Assembly (NCBI GenBank): GCA_036376135.1
Contig: DASVAW010000113.1
Span: 1-35,226 of the forward strand
Origin: Candidatus Polarisedimenticolaceae bacterium
Lineage (GTDB): Bacteria > Acidobacteriota > Polarisedimenticolia > Polarisedimenticolales > DASRJG01
Direction of reading: 5' to 3'
Length of the DNA: 35,226 nucleotides
In this document: positions 18,646 through 29,714 of the stretch, in pieces
Layout of the letters: every line of letters starts with the position of its first letter
How positions within the stretch are numbered: position 1 is the first letter of the stretch
Notes under the pieces: generated by a model
The model's input: only the letters and a program-made list of their open reading frames with translations
Databases searched by the model: none
Told to the model about the DNA's origin: nothing
Translations under genes and position numbers: made by a program

Positions 18646-19837
18646 GAAGCACGTTCGGAACGGGGATTCGACCGCTCGCGGCGACCTTTGCGCTCGCCGC
18701 GGCGCTGACGCTGACGGCGTGCGGGAGCACCCCCGAGCCCCGCGAGGCCGCGGCGCGGGCCGTGTCGGGAATGAGCGTCGAGACGGCACGGCTCGCGACG
18801 CTGCCCGACGAGCGCCAGGCTCCGGGGGTGGTGCGCTCCGTCGCGACCGCGACGCTCTCGGCCCGCACGACGGGAACGGCGATCGAGGTCCGGGCGCGGG
18901 AAGGTGCTCCCGTCCGGCGCGGCCAGCTGCTCGCGCGGCTCGACGAACGCGAGCTCGAGGCCGGACGGAGCGCCGCGCTCGCCGCGCTTCGCGAGACGGA
19001 GGCGGGGCGCGAGGAGGCCACGCGCGGGGTGGCCGCCGCGCGAGCGCAGGCGGAGCTGATGGAGAAGACGCACGCGCGCTTCCTCTTCCTGCGGGACCGG
19101 GACTCGGTGAGCCCGCAGGAGTTCGACGAGGCCGAAGCGCGCCACCGCTCGGCGCAGGCCCAACTCGCGGCGGCGCAGGCGCGCCGGCGGCAGGCGGAGG
19201 CGACCTACGCGCGCGTGGAGTCGGAAGCCCGCGCCGCGGAGACGGTGGCGAGCTACGCGCGCGTCACCGCGCCGTTCGACGGCGTGGTGGTGCGGCGATA
19301 CGTCGAGCCGGGAACGATGGTGACCCCGGGCATGCCGCTGTTCGTGGTGGAGGACACCTCGCGCTACCGGATCGAGGTCACGGTGGACGCGAGCGACGCC
19401 CGTTCGGCGGAGCCCGGCGCGAGGGCGAGGGTGCGGATCGACACGCAGCCCGCCGTGGAGCTGGACGGAACGATCGTCGAGGTCGAGGCGGGTGCGGACC
19501 CGGGCACGCAGACCGTGCGCGCCAGGATCGATCTGCCGCGGCATCCGGCGCTGCGCTCGGGGTTGTTCGGACGGGCTTGGCTCCGGCGCGGCGAGCGGCA
19601 CGTGCTGGCGGTGCCGCGCGAGAGCGTGGTCGAGCGCGGGCAGCTGCGCGGCGTCTACGTGGTGGACTCGGAGCAGCTGGCGCATTGGCGCTTGGTCACG
19701 CTCGGCGACGCGATCGGCGAAGGGTTCGAAGTGCTCTCCGGGTTCGGCGAAGGCGAGCGGTACGTGGTCGAACCGGCGGGACGCGATCTGGGCGGGACGA
19801 GAATCGACACGGCGCTGGCGCGTGCGGAGGATCGGCC

Positions 19838-19841
<4 letters not shown>
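18642..19841 (+). CDS. RND membrane-fusion (periplasmic adaptor) lipoprotein
   Basis: 399 residues, ATG overlapping the TolC-like stop as ATGA. The signal peptide ends in a good lipobox, LTAC, with Cys27 as the lipidated residue. The order is that of HlyD/AcrA-type adaptors: a beta-barrel/lipoyl half ([26 protein letters not shown], split here by description only), a long Arg/Glu/Ala helical hairpin (about residues 100-195), the second lipoyl half ([21 protein letters not shown]), a barrel domain and a membrane-proximal domain ([19 protein letters not shown]). The adaptor bridges the inner-membrane pump and the TolC-like channel. Its stop overlaps the pump start by four bases, so the three proteins should be made in fixed proportion. 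Confidence 0.93.
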
Positions 19842-23011
<3,170 letters not shown>

Positions 23012-23035: not shown

Positions 23036-23776
23036 TCAGCGCGGAAGTTCCGCGGCGCCGAAGATGTCGGCGTACACCCGCGCCATGCGGCGCAACGCCC
23101 CCGCGCCGTCCCCGGAGAACGACGAGCCGTGCATGATCGCGAGCGTGCGCGGCTCGAAGGCCGCCAGCTCGTGCAGCAGTCGCTCGGTATTCGGCGTGTA
23201 CGGCACGTAGTCCATCAGCGGGCCGGCCTGCATGGCCAGCGCCGCATCGCGCGAACGTTCCACCACGTCCTCGGAGGTCAACGGCTCGCGTCGGCCGTTG
23301 TGGTGGAACAGATCGGAGACGAACATCGTCCCCTGCGCCTGCTCGATCAGCACCCCGGCGTCCCAGCCGTGCGGCAGATGGGGCGTCGGGTGGTAGCGGA
23401 ACCGGTACTTGCCGGTCTCGAGCACCTCCCCCTTCTCGAGACCGCGGGCGGGACGGTCGGCGTAGTCCGAGAGATTGACCATCGCGCCGATCTGCCCCGA
23501 GACGGCCTGCGCCCGCGGGGCGACCTGCAGCCACTCGTTCAGGGCCCCGCTTTCGTCGACCTCGAAGTGGCTGTAGCCGATCCAGCGCAGCGTGGCGGGG
23601 TCGATCAGCCTGGACACCGCCTCCTTCAGCGCCGGGAACATGCGCCGCATCCCCGTGTGGTAGAGCAGCGGTTCTTCGTCGCGGACCAGGAAGTGGTTGA
23701 ACTCGAGGTCGAATTCGGGGACGTAGACCGAGATCCGGTGCACGTCGGGGGCGATTTCGGCGATTCGTGCGTCCAT
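23036..23776 (-). CDS. Metallo-beta-lactamase-fold protein, flavodiiron/ODP-like
   Basis: 246 residues. The ATG at 23776 has GGGAGGAC upstream; the longer frame to 23938 would overlap the divergent sigma gene. It matches the stand-alone diiron oxygen-binding relatives of flavodiiron proteins: FNHFLVRDEEPLLYHTG at the N-terminus, the metal motif His70-x-Glu72-x-Asp74 (SHFEVDESG), His133/His136 in TPHLPHGWD, Asp155 (FVSDLF) and a final His in IMHGSS. In the usual HxExDH motif the last His is Glu75 here, a variation that may alter or weaken one iron site. No flavodoxin domain is present, so electron transfer would need a partner or the protein may be a sensor. It is divergent from a sigma factor and a redox-type anti-sigma factor. 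Confidence 0.8.
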   Translation of the reverse strand: MDARIAEIAPDVHRISVYVPEFDLEFNHFLVRDEEPLLYHTGMRRMFPALKEAVSRLIDPATLRWIGYSHFEVDESGALNEWLQVAPRAQAVSGQIGAMVNLSDYADRPARGLEKGEVLETGKYRFRYHPTPHLPHGWDAGVLIEQAQGTMFVSDLFHHNGRREPLTSEDVVERSRDAALAMQAGPLMDYVPYTPNTERLLHELAAFEPRTLAIMHGSSFSGDGAGALRRMARVYADIFGAAELPR

Positions 23777-23801
23777 GCGCGTGTGTCCTCCCGCGGGGGA
23801 G

Positions 23802-23828
23802 GTGTAACGACGGGCGGGGTCGTTACAC
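23802..23828. promoter_or_regulatory. Perfect 10-bp inverted repeat between MBL and ECF sigma genes
   Basis: GTGTAACGAC (23802-23811) and GTCGTTACAC (23819-23828) are exact inverse complements with a 7-base GGGCGGG spacer. It lies 26 bases upstream of the MBL start on one side and 40 bases upstream of the sigma start on the other. A related half-site, GTGTTACC, occurs at 23850-23857. Best read as an operator controlling one or both genes. Confidence 0.65.
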
Positions 23829-23853
23829 GTCCGGTGCGAGGAACCGAACGTGT

Positions 23854-23859
23854 TACCTT
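23854..23859 (+). promoter_or_regulatory. -10-like box of the ECF sigma gene
   Basis: TACCTT is followed by CCGCCGTC and then the ATG at 23868. There is no ribosome site, so a leaderless mRNA is predicted. The -35 region would lie just after the inverted repeat. No standard GGAAC/CGTC ECF promoter is found at correct spacing. Confidence 0.35.
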
Positions 23860-23867
23860 CCGCCGTC

Positions 23868-24464
23868 ATGACCGGCAGTGCGAAAGCGGGCCCTCCGGAG
23901 CCGGCGAGCGACGTTCTGGCCGGCCTCGCGCGGGCCATCGCCGCCGCTCCACCCGGCGGCGCCGCCGACGAGGAGGCCCGCCTCGTCCGGGCGCTCGCCC
24001 CCCGGGTCCGGCTCTACGGCCTCAAGCACCTGCGCGACGCCGCGCGGGCCGACGACCTCGCCCAGGAAGTCCTGCTGACGACCCTCGAGCGGCTGCGCGC
24101 GGGGAAGATCCGTGATCCCGAGCGGATCGTCTCGTTCGTCCTCGGAACGAGCCGGGCGATGGTGATCGACCTTCTGCGCGGGGAGCGGCGGCGCCGGGAG
24201 CTCGGCGAGCTCTTCCTCCCCGGCCTCGGCGTGACGCAGGCCCCGCGGGAGCCCCTCGATCTCGATCGCCTGGCGGGCTGTCTCGACCGGCTGAGCGCGC
24301 GCGCCCGGGCGGTGGTGACGATGACCTTCTACGCGGAGCGCGACGCCGCGCAGATCGCGCAGGAGCTGACCCTCTCGCCGGGAAACGTGCGCGTCCTGCG
24401 CCACCGCGCGCTCGAACATCTGCGTGGGTGCATGGAAGGCGCGAGCGACGAGGTGCCCTCGTGA
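23868..24464 (+). CDS. ECF-type RNA polymerase sigma factor
   Basis: 198 residues from the ATG at 23868. Region 2 is recognisable by LKHLRDAARADDLAQEVLLTTLERLR and the -10-recognition part SFVLGTSRAMVIDLLRGERRRRE. Region 4 is LSARARAVVTMTFYAERDAAQIAQELTLSP (described in two parts) with the -35-binding helix-turn-helix and RHRALEHLR. The length fits group-4 sigma factors, which switch on a small regulon when freed from an anti-sigma factor. That partner is encoded immediately downstream with a four-base GTGA overlap. The divergent diiron MBL gene is a likely regulon member. The signal may be redox or oxygen related, judged from the partner's ZAS motif; this is inference. Confidence 0.9.
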   Translation: MTGSAKAGPPEPASDVLAGLARAIAAAPPGGAADEEARLVRALAPRVRLYGLKHLRDAARADDLAQEVLLTTLERLRAGKIRDPERIVSFVLGTSRAMVIDLLRGERRRRELGELFLPGLGVTQAPREPLDLDRLAGCLDRLSARARAVVTMTFYAERDAAQIAQELTLSPGNVRVLRHRALEHLRGCMEGASDEVPS

Positions 24465-25030
24465 GACCGGACCGCTGCCCGCGGCCGATTCCCTTCGCGG
24501 CCCTCGTCGATTACTGGGTCGACGATCGGCCGCCCGCCGACCCCGCGGATCTCGAGGAGCACCTGCTCGGCTGCGCGCAGTGTTCCTCGGCTCTCGAGGC
24601 CGTCGCGGCGATCGGCGAGGCGGTGGGGCGGCTCGGGCGGGAAGGCCGGCTGCGCGGGGGGCTGGCCCCTTCGCTCCTCGACCGGCTGGAGCGCGACGGC
24701 CGCGTGATCCGACGTTACCGGGCCGCGGACGGCGGCCACATCCACTGCACCGCCGGGGCCGACGACGACCTGGTCGTGCTGGAGCTCGCGGCCGACTTCT
24801 CCGACGTCGACCGCGTCGATCTGATCCACGTCGGGGCGGACGGCACGATGCTCCAGAGGGTGCCGGCGTTGCCCGTGATCGCGGGTCGCGAGGTCGTGTG
24901 GGCCTCGCCCGGCGACGTGATCCGGTCCCTGCCGACCTGCGTCATGTTCGTCCGACTGATGGCCGTGAAACCGGAGGGCGAGCGCCAGGTCGGCGAGTAC
25001 ACGCTCCATCACACGGCCTATCGTCCCTGA
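24461..25030 (+). CDS. ZAS-motif soluble anti-sigma factor
   Basis: 189 residues. The GTG at 24461 overlaps the sigma stop as GTGA, a better choice than the frame start at 24428. Residues 34-41 (HLLGCAQC) form the zinc anti-sigma motif His-x3-Cys-x2-Cys, inside the N-terminal sigma-binding helical domain. No membrane helix is visible, so it should be cytoplasmic like RsrA-type redox-sensing anti-sigma factors rather than a membrane-spanning one. The C-terminal 110 or so residues are beta-rich (GHIHCTAGADDDLVVLELAADF), include another Cys, and look like a globular sensor I cannot name. Thiol oxidation and zinc loss would free the sigma factor; that mechanism is known for RsrA and only inferred here. 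Confidence 0.8.
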   Translation: MRPDRCPRPIPFAALVDYWVDDRPPADPADLEEHLLGCAQCSSALEAVAAIGEAVGRLGREGRLRGGLAPSLLDRLERDGRVIRRYRAADGGHIHCTAGADDDLVVLELAADFSDVDRVDLIHVGADGTMLQRVPALPVIAGREVVWASPGDVIRSLPTCVMFVRLMAVKPEGERQVGEYTLHHTAYRP

Positions 25031-25054: not shown

Positions 25055-27658
25055 TCAGCGCCCTGCCGCCAGCGCGTCGAACTCCGGGTCGCCCCGCAAC
25101 GCGTCGAAGACCGGCGAGAGGCGAAGCAACGCCGCCGAGACCTGGTCGGAAGGCTGCTCGAGCAGCTCGCGCAGGTGCCCGATCGCGGCGGCGCGTTCGC
25201 CCACGACCGCCTCGACGACGGCGAGGTCGAGCTTCCGGTACTGGAGCAGCCACGCGTCGTTCGACGCGGGGCGGAGGGTGAGCGCCCGCCGCGCCGCCTC
25301 GAGCGCCGGCTGCTTCTCCCCGAGCTCCGCGAAAACCATCCCGAGCATGGAGTGGTAGTTCGAGTCGGGGACGTGGTTTTTCCCGTAGGCGACCAGCTCC
25401 CGCTTCGCGCGCTCGAACTCGGCGCGCGCGCCGGCTTCGTCCCCCTGGAACTTACGGATCCAGCCGCGGCCCGCCGCACGGCATTCGAACTGGAACTGCG
25501 CGTTGCCGACCTCGGGAAGCAGCTCGGCGATCTTCGACGCCAGGTCCCAGTCGCGGCAGCCGACCGCCGTCCAGAACCCGGCCTGGCGCGACTCGGTGTT
25601 GGCGGCGGTCTCGACGATGGAGCGCACCGACGCGCACGCGGCGTCGGCGTCGCCCGCGAGCATCGCCGTGCGGCCCAGGCCCGCCGACTGCGCCGTGGAG
25701 TTCGGGTCGAGCGCGATCGCCCGCTCGTAGCTGCGCCGGCCCTCGTCGTACCGGCGGAGGACCGTGAGCGTCTCGCCCCTGGTGTAGTGCGTGAGCGCGT
25801 TGCGGGGATCGAGCGCCGCCGATCGCTCGATGAGCTCGGCGGCTTCCTGGAACCGCCCCTGGCGGCGGCGCACGAAGGCCATGCCGTTGATCGCCTCGAC
25901 CGAGCTCGGAAGCCCCGCCTTCGCCTTCGTGAAGGCCTGGTAGGCGGGCTCGTAGTCCTTGCGGCCCCAGTAGTGGTAGTAGCCGAGCGCCAGCTGCGCC
26001 CACGGCGAAGCCGGGTCGAGCTCGAGCGCGCGGTCGACGGCGCGTTTCGAGCGCGCGACGCGCTCGTCCGAGCGGTCCCAGGCGAAGTGCACGAACCCCG
26101 CGTGCACCTGCGCGAGCTCGGCGAAGGCGCGCAGGAACTTCGGGTCCCGCGAGCAGGCCTCCTCGAGCTCCACGGCGGCGCGTTCCCAGGCCTCGCGCGC
26201 GAAGACGGTGCTCGCGACGATCGCATGGGCGCGCAGGTACGCGTGGTACGCCTCGACGTCGGAGGTGGGGGCGGCCTCGAGCGCCTCGCGCTCCTTCCCG
26301 CCGATCGCGACCCCGAGCCTGTCCACGACCTCCCCCGCGATCTCCGACTGGATCGTGAAGATCTGGTCCATCGCGCGGTCGTAACTCGACGACCAGACCT
26401 GGCGGTCCTCGCGCGCGCGGACGAGTTGGGGGGTGACGCGGACCGCGCTTTTCCCGGAGGCGTCGCGCGCCCACCGCACCGTCCCGTCGAGGACGTAGTC
26501 CACGCCGAGATCCTCCGCGATCTGCGGCATCGTCCTGCCGGTCCGGTCGTAGCGCAGCGCGCTCGTCCGCGAGAGGACGCCGAGGTCCTTCAACGCCGAA
26601 AGGCGGCTCGTGATCTCGTCGGCGATCCCCGCCGCGAAGTACTCGTCCGCGGCGGGGCCGAGGTTCTCGAAGGGGAAGACGACGATCATCGGCCGCTCGG
26701 CGATCGGCGCCGGCGACGGGCGGTCCCGGCCGAGGTACCACCCCGTTCCGAGGACCGCGAGGACGAGCGCTCCCAGGCCGATCGCGAGCGGCACTCCGCT
26801 CCGCCGCCGCGGGGTCGCCCCCGCCCGCAGCGCCTGGAGGTCGTCCCGAAGCTCGCGCGCGGTCGGATAACGCTCCGCCGGATTCTTCGCGAGGCAGCGC
26901 TGCACGATCCGGTCGACGGCTCTCGCGACCGTCGGCTTGCGTTCGTGGACCGGCTTCGCCGGATCGCGGAGGATCGCGGTCAGCGTCGAGATCGAGTTCG
27001 TTCCCTGGAACGGACGCGCGCCGGTGATCATCTCGTAGAGCACGATCCCGAGCGAGAAGACGTCCGATCGCGCGTCGACGGGCCTGCCTTCGGCCTGCTC
27101 CGGGGACATGTAGCTGACCGTGCCGAGGATCCTGCCGTGTTCGGTGGCGTGCGAGAGCGACGTCACCGTCCGGTCGCCGACGGGCTCCGCCTCGACGAGC
27201 TTCGCGAGCCCGAAGTCGAGGACCTTCACCCGCCCCTCGTCGTCGAGCATCACGTTGTCGGGTTTCAGGTCGCGGTGCGTGATCCCCCGGGCGTGCGCCG
27301 CGGCGACGGCGTCGCACAGCGGGATCGCGATCTCGAGGAACCGGTCGAGCGGCAACCCGTCCGGCGGGAGGCGCTTCGTCAGCGTCTGCCCCTCGACCAG
27401 CTCCATCGCCAGGAAGCGCAGGCCGTCCCGCTGGTCGACGTCGTGGATGGTGACGATGTTCGGATGGCGCAGCGCCGCAACGGCCCGCGCCTCGCGTTCG
27501 AAGCGCGCGGCGCGCTCGGGGTCGGCATCGGCCGCGGGCAGGACCTTGAGCGCGACGTCCCGGTCCAGGCGCGTGTCGCGCGCGCGGTACACCTCGCCCA
27601 TGCCGCCCTGGCCGAGCTTCTCCAGGATCTCGTAGTGGCCGAGGCGGCTTCCGATCAT
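25055..27658 (-). CDS. Membrane Ser/Thr protein kinase with TolB-N-like domain and TPR tail
   Basis: 867 residues, ATG at 27658. The kinase domain has GQGGMGEV (16-23), Lys38, HRDLKPDN (128-135), DFG (148-150) and MSPEQAEGR. One membrane helix (VPLAIGLGALVLAVLGTGWYLG) lies at about 290-312. After it comes a domain of the type found in TPR-bearing adenylate cyclases and FlgO/TolB-N proteins: VVFPFENLGPAADEYFAAGI, then LGVDYVLDGTVRW and a WSSSYDR block. The last 370 or so residues are TPR-like helical repeats (SPWAQLALGYYHYWG, DPRNALTHYTRGETL, DPNSTAQSAGLGRTAM). This kinase/TPR architecture is common in acidobacteria; the TPRs probably bind partner proteins. It stands alone as a transcription unit, convergent with the sigma/anti-sigma pair. 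Confidence 0.9.
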   Translation of the reverse strand: MIGSRLGHYEILEKLGQGGMGEVYRARDTRLDRDVALKVLPAADADPERAARFEREARAVAALRHPNIVTIHDVDQRDGLRFLAMELVEGQTLTKRLPPDGLPLDRFLEIAIPLCDAVAAAHARGITHRDLKPDNVMLDDEGRVKVLDFGLAKLVEAEPVGDRTVTSLSHATEHGRILGTVSYMSPEQAEGRPVDARSDVFSLGIVLYEMITGARPFQGTNSISTLTAILRDPAKPVHERKPTVARAVDRIVQRCLAKNPAERYPTARELRDDLQALRAGATPRRRSGVPLAIGLGALVLAVLGTGWYLGRDRPSPAPIAERPMIVVFPFENLGPAADEYFAAGIADEITSRLSALKDLGVLSRTSALRYDRTGRTMPQIAEDLGVDYVLDGTVRWARDASGKSAVRVTPQLVRAREDRQVWSSSYDRAMDQIFTIQSEIAGEVVDRLGVAIGGKEREALEAAPTSDVEAYHAYLRAHAIVASTVFAREAWERAAVELEEACSRDPKFLRAFAELAQVHAGFVHFAWDRSDERVARSKRAVDRALELDPASPWAQLALGYYHYWGRKDYEPAYQAFTKAKAGLPSSVEAINGMAFVRRRQGRFQEAAELIERSAALDPRNALTHYTRGETLTVLRRYDEGRRSYERAIALDPNSTAQSAGLGRTAMLAGDADAACASVRSIVETAANTESRQAGFWTAVGCRDWDLASKIAELLPEVGNAQFQFECRAAGRGWIRKFQGDEAGARAEFERAKRELVAYGKNHVPDSNYHSMLGMVFAELGEKQPALEAARRALTLRPASNDAWLLQYRKLDLAVVEAVVGERAAAIGHLRELLEQPSDQVSAALLRLSPVFDALRGDPEFDALAAGR

Positions 27659-27723: not shown

Positions 27724-28095
27724 ATGAGCACCAACCCGATCGACGCCTACCTCGCCAAGACCCCTCAACCTCAGAGAAAGACGTTGACCGCGCTCCGCGC
27801 GACCCTCCGCACCCTGCTTCCGCGCGCGGAGGAGACCCTTTCGTACGGCATGCCCTGTTTCAAGGTGGACGGGAAGGGCGTCGCCGGATTCGCCGCCTTC
27901 AAGGCGCACTGCACCTACTTCCCGATGAGCGGGTCGGTCGTGAGCGCCTTGAAGGGCGACCTCGCGCGCTACGAGGTCTCCAAGGGCGGCGTCCGGTTCG
28001 CCGCGGACACTCCCCTCCCGCCGGCGCTCGTGAAGAAGCTCGTCCGGGCGCGTCTCGCGGAGCTGTCGACCCCTCCCTCGAGCGGGGGAAGGTGA
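27724..28095 (+). CDS. DUF1801 / YdhG-like small protein
   Basis: 123 residues. The fold family is recognised from IDAYLAKTPQPQRKTLTALR, ETLSYGMPCFKVDGKGVAGFA, the CTYFPMSGSVV strand and KGGVRFAADTPLPPALVKKLV. This matches the DUF1801/YdhG group of compact alpha-beta proteins. Some members are proposed iron-binding chaperones like frataxin-related Fra, but the biochemical role is not settled. It is a single short gene with its own promoter-like TAGGAT, divergent from the TPR kinase and 95 bases before the ammonia-lyase gene. Nothing in the context fixes its function. Confidence 0.85.
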   Translation: MSTNPIDAYLAKTPQPQRKTLTALRATLRTLLPRAEETLSYGMPCFKVDGKGVAGFAAFKAHCTYFPMSGSVVSALKGDLARYEVSKGGVRFAADTPLPPALVKKLVRARLAELSTPPSSGGR

Positions 28096-28127
28096 ACGGG
28101 ACGAGGTTCCCGACTTGGAGGGTGTCG

Positions 28128-28133
28128 CATAAT
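28128..28133 (+). promoter_or_regulatory. -10 box of the ammonia-lyase gene
   Basis: CATAAT matches TATAAT at five of six positions, about 57 bases before the ATG at 28191. No clear -35 is seen at 16-18 bases. The leader of about 50 bases has AGGAGAGG just before the start. Confidence 0.4.
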
Positions 28134-28190
28134 TCTCCCGTCGAGCGGGCTTGCACGGCCCCGGCCGGCCCTTCGCCAAAAGGAGAGGGT

Positions 28191-29714
28191 ATGGCCATCG
28201 TCCTCGACGGATCCTCGCTCACGGTCCCCGATCTCGTCCGCATCGCCCGCGACGGCGAGAGGGTGGAGCTCGCCCCACGGGCGCTGGAGCGGATCCGCGC
28301 CTGCCGCGCCGTGCTCGAGGAGAAGATCGACGCGCACGAGATCATGTACGGCGTCAACACCGGGATCGGCGAGTTCTCGGAGGTCGTGCTCACCGACGCG
28401 CAGGTCCGGGACTTCCAGCGGTACCTGATCTACAACCACGCGGCCGGAATCGGCGACCCGGCGCCCGAGGAGTACGTGCGCGGAGCGATGGCCGGGCGCG
28501 TGAACGTCCATGCCCACGGCAACTCCGGGTGCCGGCCGGAGATCACGCAGACGCTCGTCGAGATGCTCAATCGCCGCGTGACGCCCGTCGTCTGCCAGAA
28601 GGGCTCCGTCGGCGCCTGCGGCGACCTCGCGCCGATGTCGCAGATCGCGCTGCTGCTCATGGGAGAGGGCGAAGCCACGTTCCGCGGGGAGCGCCTTCCG
28701 GGCGCCGTCGCGATGGAACGGGCCGGCATCCCGATTCCGGGCCTCAAGGCGAGGGACGGCCTGGCGACGATCAACGGCTCGAACCTCCTCACCGCGATGA
28801 GCGCGATCCACATCCACGACATCGAGCGATGGCTCCGGCAGGCCGAGATCGCCTGCGCCATGTCGCTCGAGGCGCTCTTCGCCAACTTCAAGCCCTACGA
28901 CGTCAGGCTGCACCGGCTGCGGGGCTTCCCGGGGGCGGTGCGCTCGGCGCAGTCGATCATGCGATGCGTCGAGGGGAGCGACCTCCTGACCGGAAAGCTC
29001 AAGACCAAGGTGCAGGACGCGTACTCGATGCGCTCGACCCCGCAGGTGATCGGCGCCGCGCGGGACGCCACCGCCTTCGCCCGCGCCCAGGTCGAGATCG
29101 AGCTCAACGGCGTCGGCGACAACCCGATCTTCCTTCCGGAGGAGCGTCTCACCCTCACCGGCGCCAACTTCCAGGGCACGCCGGTGTCGCTGCCGATGGA
29201 CATGGTCGGGGCCGCGGTGACGATGGTCTGCGTGTTGTCCGAGCGACGCCTCAACCGCCTCAACCATCCCGCGCTGTCGGTCGGGCTCCCGGCGTTCCTG
29301 ACGAAGGGGGCGGGGATGTTCTCCGGGCTCATGCTCTCGCAGTACACCGCCGACGCGCTGATCGTCGAGCAGCGGATCCTGTCGATGCCGGCCTCGATCC
29401 AGTCGATCCCCGCCGCCGCAGACCAGGAGGACTTCGTCTCGATGGGAATGAACACCGCCATCAAGAACGGCCAGATCCTCGACAACGCCTACGGCGTGCT
29501 CGGGATCGAGCTGATGGCCGCGGCGCAGGCGCTCGACTTCCGCGAGTTCACCCCCGGGCGCGGCGTCCAGGCGGCGCGGCGGGTCGTGCGCTCGGTCGTC
29601 GAGCACCTCGACGTCGACCGCCCGCTCTACCCCGACCACACGCGGATGAAGGAGCTCGTCCGCGGCTGCGCGATCCTCGAGGCGGTCGAGAGGGAGATCG
29701 GCCCGCTGGAGTGA
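28191..29714 (+). CDS. MIO-type ammonia-lyase, histidine ammonia-lyase-like, with an Ala-Cys-Gly cofactor triad
   Basis: 507 residues from the ATG at 28191, set by AGGAGAGG. Family enzymes build the MIO electrophile from an internal Ala-Ser-Gly and remove ammonia from His, Phe or Tyr, or shift the amino group. Here GSVGACGDLAP shows Ala142-Cys143-Gly144, so Cys (codon TGC, 28617-28619) replaces the usual Ser. Other landmarks fall at Pseudomonas HutH numbering: Tyr53 in YGVNTG, His83 in YNHAAGIG, and Glu413 in DQEDFVSM, close to HutH Glu414. His and Glu at these places favour histidine over phenylalanine. However, the HutH QEDH block reads QEDF, and no hutU, hutI or hutG lies nearby. A tyrosine lyase or aminomutase role remains possible. 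The protein lacks a signal peptide and is cytoplasmic. Confidence 0.88.
   Translation: MAIVLDGSSLTVPDLVRIARDGERVELAPRALERIRACRAVLEEKIDAHEIMYGVNTGIGEFSEVVLTDAQVRDFQRYLIYNHAAGIGDPAPEEYVRGAMAGRVNVHAHGNSGCRPEITQTLVEMLNRRVTPVVCQKGSVGACGDLAPMSQIALLLMGEGEATFRGERLPGAVAMERAGIPIPGLKARDGLATINGSNLLTAMSAIHIHDIERWLRQAEIACAMSLEALFANFKPYDVRLHRLRGFPGAVRSAQSIMRCVEGSDLLTGKLKTKVQDAYSMRSTPQVIGAARDATAFARAQVEIELNGVGDNPIFLPEERLTLTGANFQGTPVSLPMDMVGAAVTMVCVLSERRLNRLNHPALSVGLPAFLTKGAGMFSGLMLSQYTADALIVEQRILSMPASIQSIPAAADQEDFVSMGMNTAIKNGQILDNAYGVLGIELMAAAQALDFREFTPGRGVQAARRVVRSVVEHLDVDRPLYPDHTRMKELVRGCAILEAVEREIGPLE

Follow-up and report, generated by a model that had tools for sequence, protein, structure and literature searches.

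A predicted two-way promoter and a candidate sigma/anti-sigma switch beside a flavodiiron-type MBL gene in Acidobacteriota

The window analysed here is a whole contig, C113, comprising 35,226 nucleotides of the 4.38-Mb draft genome of a Candidatus Polarisedimenticolaceae bacterium (Acidobacteriota). It carries adjoining genes for a sigma factor of the extracytoplasmic function (ECF) type and for a soluble anti-sigma factor with a zinc-binding anti-sigma (ZAS) domain, and, divergent from them, a gene for a protein of the metallo-beta-lactamase (MBL) fold (Table 1). A perfect inverted repeat lies between the divergent genes, and the question raised by this locus is what reads it, a separate regulator or the sigma factor encoded beside it. 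Comparison of related sequences makes it quite probable that the three genes form a self-contained cytoplasmic switch with a symmetric two-way promoter, of which the MBL protein would be the product. The genes, the element and the link of the element to whichever target gene is present are conserved; the sigma factor would read the element, the anti-sigma factor would bind the sigma factor, and a feedback loop would join them.

A preliminary description of this DNA had recognized the divergent MBL gene with its HxExDE motif, the sigma and anti-sigma genes overlapping by four bases, a soluble HxxxCxxC anti-sigma factor with a motif as in RsrA and a C-terminal domain of no known kind, the flavodiiron-like character of the MBL protein and the perfect 10-bp repeat in the intergenic region. 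All of these are borne out below. Its interpretation holds in part: the suggestion that the MBL protein is the likely product of the switch gains support, from a predicted promoter element that points at the target gene.

The mirror-image element and its likely reader

In the window the 10-bp repeat extends to 14-nt arms with a complementarity of 93%. It belongs to a 35-bp symmetric plan, approximately GGARG-TGTMACG-N11-CGTKACA-CYTCC, which recurs at 11 loci with the arms at a fixed distance; the arms are symmetric at 12 of 13 positions in the window and at 126 of 143 over the 11 sites. We searched for the repeat elsewhere, as the preliminary description had proposed. Six of the phylum's 396 genomes contain the exact core GTGTMACG-N11-CGTKACAC, always at the module (the sigma/anti-sigma pair with its target gene), and the reversed-pattern control gave 0 among the matches listed, so the inverted repeat is beyond chance. 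With one mismatch allowed, the core occurs at 15 places in 14 of the 19 genomes that hold the module, 13 of them at module loci.

Such near-perfect two-fold symmetry is typical of dimeric factors, and the palindrome could serve a separate dimeric transcription factor as operator, through which both divergent genes are repressed or activated. We did not take this as our first choice, because at loci with co-directional targets the element is oriented. If target and sigma gene are not divergent, a single oriented copy precedes the target: TGTAAC-N17-CACTTCC at the MBL gene of L026 and L167 and at the cupin gene of L020, CGTAAC-N17-CACTTCC before the MBL gene of L027, TGTAAC-N17-CACATGG before the cupin-SnoaL gene of L022, with a DinB gene divergent from it, and TGTAAC-N18-CACATGG before the cupin-SnoaL genes of L162 and L163. 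Apart from L022, these loci, together with L211 and L212 (see below), thus have one-way, target-oriented elements and not inverted repeats. Nor does any gene cluster other than sigma, anti-sigma, MBL and overlapping frames occur in more than 4 of the 22 loci compared, several of which are cut by contig ends; no other common regulator is therefore seen, though a distant one is conceivable, and there is usually one site per genome. Two loci speak for an operator and against the promoter reading: L161 has two copies within one intergenic region, of which the copy by the sigma gene stays symmetric though the second sits nearer the divergent genes, and the core of the one-way copy in L022 falls one mismatch short of symmetry. 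On the whole the inverted repeat is probably not an operator, and we give the operator reading a small probability; two superposed promoters explain it better.

On that preferred reading, the palindrome would be two copies of the element face to face, the predicted -35 of each abutting the predicted -10 of the other. The -35/-10 assignment of the two halves was taken over from the one-way copies at the other loci. The predicted -35 is ECF-like (AAC). An alternative split, with GGARGT as -35 and CGTKAC as -10, was dropped because the co-directional loci keep TGTAAC...CACTTCC and not GGA...CGT.

We next asked how closely the element keeps to the module. Over the 20 phylum loci, 242.6 kb in all, a relaxed pattern gave 32 matches, 29 in module promoter regions (19 of 20 loci) and 3 elsewhere, compared with 3.9 matches in all for mononucleotide shuffles of the same 242.6 kb. 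The strict pattern TGTMAC-N17-CACWTCC was found in the 19 module genomes at 13 places (11 of 19 genomes), 12 of them at the module, and its reversed control gave 3. At 38 stand-alone MBL loci a loose match lies upstream in one. After the rule had been formed, two further loci, L211 and L212, were found to hold two back-to-back one-way copies each (TGTAAC or CGTAAC-N17-CACATCC), the first upstream of a DUF3237 gene and the other upstream of an MBL-sigma-anti-sigma row; L211 has one further match elsewhere.

The TGTMAC elements thus sit at the module's target genes, and their recognition by the module's sigma factor is predicted. This sigma factor has regions 2 and 4 only, in about 200 residues, as is usual for ECF sigma factors: the 204-residue reading scores 27.7 bits for Sigma70_r2 (cut-off 24) and 42.2 bits for Sigma70_r4 (cut-off 24.1), and the protein (198-204 residues) ends after region 4, with no large fused C-terminal extension. 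Since no shared regulator cluster is seen and the site is nearly unique per genome, the module's own sigma factor is its natural reader, and the palindrome would be a bidirectional promoter for that sigma factor, with a nearly single-target regulon. At arm position 9, A/T stands in 8 sites and C/G in 3 (L018, L165 and L166), both arms of which read TGTCAC and not TGTAAC. The sigma factors of these three loci form one clade (87/97) and, alone of the 20 aligned sequences, window included, have ENVR[AT] in the region-4 helix.

Several points weigh against this reading. Because the three carriers form one clade, the change in -35 and helix may be a single event. The element rule was read by eye from the very loci on which it is counted, and L211 and L212, its sole later test, count as one case because they are near-identical. 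The window's own two copies fall outside the strict pattern, itself matching in 11 of the 19 module genomes, because their -10s read CACGTCC and CACCTCC. L168 fits the element loosely only (CGTAAC-N17-CACGTG), and the -10 CACTTCC differs from the common ECF CGTC. Further targets of the sigma factor are not claimed. Three extra sites were noted: a one-mismatch palindrome in the module genome G187 (G187:C34, L213:3076-3102), between genes that by eye are cation-efflux-like and amidohydrolase-like, a second one-mismatch palindrome in G491:C56 and a one-way match in G099:C163. The first, the only one inspected closely, has a poor -10 part.

A gene set shared across families

We collected the loci with the anti-sigma factor. 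A protein search of 396 genomes of the phylum matched 14 at E <= 0.001, 10 of these above 80 bits, and in the class of G125 an anti-sigma profile reported 130 of 193 genomes, 15 with more than 70 bits. In the window's own class the profile reported 18 of 41 genomes, the only full-length match being that of the window's genome, and one relative used as query on the class of G056 reported 9 of 148 genomes, 3 with full-length matches. Twenty full-length sigma/anti-sigma loci were kept from the phylum, which with L211 and L212 made 22 pairs. Left out were G472, whose anti-sigma gene is partial and lies at a contig edge, a second, partial copy in G055 interrupted by one stop, L028 and L029, which matched weakly or not at all, and, from the class of G125, 115 of the 130 reported genomes, with weak and mostly N-terminal matches.

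Conservation of the neighbourhood had been set beforehand as the test on which the preliminary description should stand or fall, and the neighbourhood is conserved: an MBL gene adjoins the sigma gene or sits one gene away in 18 of the 22 pairs. Among the 20 phylum loci, 12 have an MBL of the window's family, 4 a more distant MBL and 4 none. Nine of the 12 are divergent from the sigma gene and three (L026, L027 and L167) lie co-directionally in the order MBL-sigma-anti-sigma; the more distant MBL genes are divergent in all four cases. A DinB gene separates sigma from MBL in L023 and L161. The fetched stretches of L020, L022, L162 and L163 hold no MBL gene, and the gene upstream of sigma encodes a cupin in L020 and a cupin-SnoaL fusion in the other three. 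All 16 MBL proteins of the phylum loci pass the Pfam cut-off for ODP, which makes 16 of 18 overall. The other two come from the phylum of L030, recorded as Planctomycetota, where 2 of 294 genomes were positive (L211 and L212): here the row MBL-sigma-anti-sigma stands divergent from the DUF3237 gene, and the MBL proteins score above the Lactamase_B cut-off and below that for ODP (25.2 and 23.1 vs 27.2 bits). These data support the conclusion that the three genes form a set conserved across families.

In the phylum of L108, 0 of 297 genomes matched at E <= 1e-10, and neither did any of 22 genomes with a stand-alone MBL gene; since the larger searches score only the best candidates per genome and these two were run without a positive control, such absences are not proof. 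No relative was found among viral contigs and no match among plasmids. G001, the sole other genome of the window's family, is without the module, and the 40 other genomes of its class gave no full-length match, which disfavours a purely vertical history. G125 holds two modules with different targets, L022 (cupin-SnoaL, with its DinB neighbour) and L027 (MBL). L023 has, some 3 kb away from its intact anti-sigma gene, a second, partial copy with an internal stop (L023:12435-12716); duplication and decay of the module thus seem to take place.

Could a stand-alone MBL gene simply happen to sit beside an ECF pair? The MBL family is far larger than the module: of 592 candidate stretches at least 562 code for relatives, the best 80 of which are spread over many phyla. 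Most of the family stands without the pair. The module's anti-sigma gene was found in 0 of the 80 fetched stretches, some of them short, which counts against the proposed switch; three stretches, L030 (see below) among them, have a weak ECF match, and apart from overlapping frames of the MBL gene itself no neighbour is shared by more than five loci. The proximity of MBL to sigma in 18 of 22 pairs and a shared element specific to the module nevertheless leave chance neighbourhood hardly credible.

We then placed 12 family MBLs of the module on a tree with 38 others, distant MBLs being left out. The module label needs three changes on this tree, all forced by well-supported branches. The window groups with L030 (98/91), L026, L027 and L167 make up a second set, and the other eight form a deep third clade. 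The three changes can be read as three joinings of MBL and module; one gain and two losses also fits. L030 (L030:5054-6076, from a record assigned to Planctomycetota), the nearest relative of the window MBL in the tree, stands divergent from a different kind of ECF sigma gene, whose anti-sigma factor looks SigK/RskA-like by eye, and no element of the module's type was found upstream of this MBL gene.

The anti-sigma factor and the MBL protein

The window anti-sigma protein carries the motif HLLGCAQC, with C6, H34, C38 and C41 as ZAS residues. An H-x3-C-x2-C motif downstream of a further Cys/His, in a gene adjoining the sigma gene, marks it as a ZAS protein, its zinc motif being of the RsrA/ChrR type. 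The motif is present in all 22 relatives, preceded by an N-terminal Cys in 19 and by a nearby His in the other 3. The window protein alone stays below the zf-HC2 cut-off (E 0.011); zf-HC2 was reported at E <= 1 for 10 of the 11 aligned family members (the window's among them), the best at 2e-7, and the best PDB match of the ZAS domain is ChrR (2q1z, E 8e-4). No membrane segment is apparent: the highest 19-residue Kyte-Doolittle mean is 1.25 in the window protein and at most 1.4 in 20 of the 22 anti-sigma proteins, and an alanine-rich stretch takes L211 and L212 to 1.9-2.0. For the C-terminal domain, 11 members gave no convincing Pfam family, and a sequence search of the same members gave no cupin match at E <= 1. 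C96, D102, R175 and H184 are invariant in these 11, and the C-terminal Cys (C96) is kept in 21 of 22. The domain is a candidate new sensory domain of anti-sigma factors. A single-sequence model of the anti-sigma factor reached a predicted local distance difference test (pLDDT) score of 48.

The MBL protein scores 33.6 bits against Pfam ODP (PF19583, cut-off 27.2). An AlphaFold2 model built from 39 sequences (pLDDT 93.9) retrieved the flavodiiron protein 1e5d (E 1.7e-14) and superposed on 1vme with Z 26.6 over 234 residues (root-mean-square deviation 2.8) and on the ODP structure 6qwo with Z 25.3. The 39 aligned proteins, window included, all have H70, E72, D74, E75, H136, D155 and H216, and in each of them E75 replaces the last His of HxExDH, giving HFEVDE in the window. 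As the relatives were fetched partly with the pattern SHFE[AV]DE[CS], which contains that stretch, its invariance is favoured by construction. The position of E75 aligns with H90 of the Thermotoga maritima flavodiiron protein, for which structures of the H90A, H90N and H90D variants have been solved. With its 246 residues, the window protein is an MBL domain only, the flavodoxin part being absent. Model and alignment together support a likeness to the flavodiiron/ODP domain in which the metal ligands, as assigned from alignments and known ligand numbers, are kept except for Glu in place of the last His.

Two more specific readings bear on these proteins. In the first, a special case of the proposed switch, the anti-sigma factor would sense peroxide or oxygen through an RsrA-like disulfide and the MBL protein would be an O2- or nitric oxide (NO)-reducing diiron enzyme. 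A disulfide of this kind would need the N-terminal Cys, which 19 of 22 anti-sigma factors have and for which the other 3 have His; the spacing of C6, H34, C38 and C41 resembles that of RsrA, and ChrR is the nearest solved structure to the ZAS domain. Fold and ligands of the MBL protein would suit such an enzyme, but it is without the flavodoxin part to supply electrons, and other loci use cupin, cupin-SnoaL, DinB or DUF3237 genes. We regard this version as rather unlikely. In the second, the MBL protein would be part of the input, binding oxygen or a ligand and signalling to the anti-sigma factor, and not output alone. PDB titles call ODP a chemotaxis sensor, and MBLs of different origin adjoin this pair. 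Since an MBL gene is absent from the fetched stretch at 4 of the 22 loci (although G125, which holds one of them, has a second module with MBL), the MBL protein is not a required local input, and by the predicted promoter it would itself be made by the switch; an input role is thus improbable.

The coordinates are collected in Table 1. Nearer the sigma gene than the palindrome, a TATGCT/TAGAAT-like element, seen by eye, may provide basal expression. Several neighbouring genes were noted by eye. A frame for an efflux pump of the resistance-nodulation-division (RND) type (18719-23011, start uncertain) is convergent with the MBL gene, 24 bases from its stop. On the other side, a gene for a Ser/Thr protein kinase with a TPR-like C-terminal part (25055-27658) is convergent with the anti-sigma gene, 24 bases apart; the kinase cluster occurs in 4 of 22 loci, and in L160 a related kinase gene follows the anti-sigma gene. 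An aromatic amino acid ammonia-lyase-like gene lies at 28092-29714.

Table 1 Features of the locus in the window, with positions and strands; promoter elements are predictions
Feature	Position	Strand	Remarks
MBL-fold protein of the ODP/flavodiiron type, 246 aa	23036..23776	-	ATG 23776; predicted target of the switch
Shine-Dalgarno-like GGGAGGA upstream of the MBL ATG	23786..23792	-	read off the sequence
Palindromic mirror-image element, 35 bp	23798..23832	.	two superposed promoters (predicted)
Predicted sigma-dependent promoter towards MBL	23798..23827	-	-35 TGTAAC 23827-23822, N17, -10 CACCTCC 23804-23798
Inverted repeat GTGTAACGAC-N7-GTCGTTACAC	23802-23811/23819-23828		perfect 10-bp arms
Predicted sigma-dependent promoter towards sigma/anti-sigma	23803..23832	+	-35 TGTAAC 23803-23808, N17, -10 CACGTCC 23826-23832
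Possible housekeeping -10 TTACCT before the sigma gene	23853..23858	+	by eye; TATGCT/TAGAAT-like in relatives
ECF-type sigma factor, 198 aa	23868..24464	+	ATG 23868; alternative start GTG 23850 gives 204 aa
Soluble anti-sigma factor, 189 aa	24461..25030	+	GTG 24461, overlapping the sigma stop by 4 bases; N-terminal ZAS domain and C-terminal domain without known family

A proposed switch and its relation to known systems

In the proposed mechanism, the zinc (ZAS) domain of the soluble anti-sigma factor would keep hold of the ECF sigma factor. A signal, sensed by the zinc site, the C-terminal domain or both, would loosen this grip, and the freed sigma factor would bring RNA polymerase to the single symmetric promoter between the genes. 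As this promoter would consist of two superposed TGTMAC-N17-CACNTCC copies, polymerase could bind in either orientation, never in both at once. The leftward output would be the ODP/flavodiiron-type MBL protein and the rightward output more sigma and anti-sigma factor; extra sigma factor would amplify the response, extra anti-sigma factor would reset it, and the MBL protein would deal with whatever caused the stress. Our guess for the signal, made with considerable doubt, is oxygen, NO, peroxide or another redox or electrophile stress, and it draws on the zinc-thiol site, the ODP-type fold and the cupin, DinB and SnoaL genes found alongside; the targets differ between loci and so do not pin the signal down.

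More broadly, we tentatively propose that the pairs represent an undescribed ECF group of Acidobacteriota, with carriers in Planctomycetota, that acts as a portable switch. It would combine a soluble anti-sigma factor, whose new sensory domain has a conserved Cys/Asp/His set, with a dedicated promoter and a one-target socket that has been refilled several times, mostly by a diiron MBL; in the divergent form the promoters would be merged, so that each binding event chooses effector or regulator. A literature search found no description of this combination in titles and abstract openings. The promoter logic of the circuit can be read from sequence alone, with one 35-bp mirror-image promoter predicted to fire both ways under a single ECF sigma factor. 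The module offers a compact, possibly orthogonal regulator and a way into the function of a widespread MBL family, which usually lacks a conserved neighbour.

ECF pairs with soluble ZAS anti-sigma factors are already known. RpoE-ChrR of Rhodobacter sphaeroides belongs to ECF11, and ChrR, which carries a cupin C-terminal domain, is the anti-sigma factor of the singlet-oxygen response. The present anti-sigma factor is likewise a soluble ZAS protein with its closest solved match in ChrR, but no cupin was detected by sequence in the 11 members searched; the target at L020 is a free cupin gene matching the Pfam entry 'ChrR Cupin-like'. In Streptomyces, SigR-RsrA has a soluble ZAS anti-sigma factor with a Cys/His set around H-x3-C-x2-C and a large regulon. 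The module shares this arrangement and differs in an extra C-terminal domain of about 110 residues, in having the N-terminal Cys in 19 of 22 members, and in having nearly one target. Its MBL protein matches ODP and flavodiiron proteins in fold (6qwo and 1vme) and, by alignment, in the H, E, D, H, D, H ligand positions, and departs from them in the change of DH to DE and the missing flavodoxin domain. ECF41 is not known to have an anti-sigma gene.

Local single-target ECF regulons (PMC3426412) and symmetric bidirectional promoters in E. coli (PMC12825309) are known already. PMC3426412 describes for ECF41 a near-single-target local regulon with a specific promoter at the target gene, a -35 of TGTCACA, a -10 of CGTC, a spacer of 16 +/- 1 bp and a large fused C-terminal extension. 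Set against that description, the module has a similarly local, near-single-target regulon (predicted here) and a TGTMAC resembling TGTCACA, whereas its sigma factor is without the large extension, its -10 is not CGTC and its spacer is 17/18. In the E. coli promoters (PMC12825309) the DNA is symmetric, polymerase binds in two mutually exclusive orientations and a symmetric -10 is shared; here, in contrast, the whole promoter would be mirrored, each -35 abutting the other's -10, and an ECF-sigma polymerase is presumed. A similar arrangement of genes is that of HrpL/hrpJ, where an ECF sigma gene lies divergent from its target across a shared intergenic region with feedback via the target promoter; hrpL is sigma-54 dependent, the feedback is negative, and the two promoter elements are adjacent and not superposed (PMC5263251). 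The module would share with it the divergent sigma and target genes, the common intergenic region and the proposed feedback via the target promoter, and would differ from it in that its promoter elements are, by prediction, superposed.

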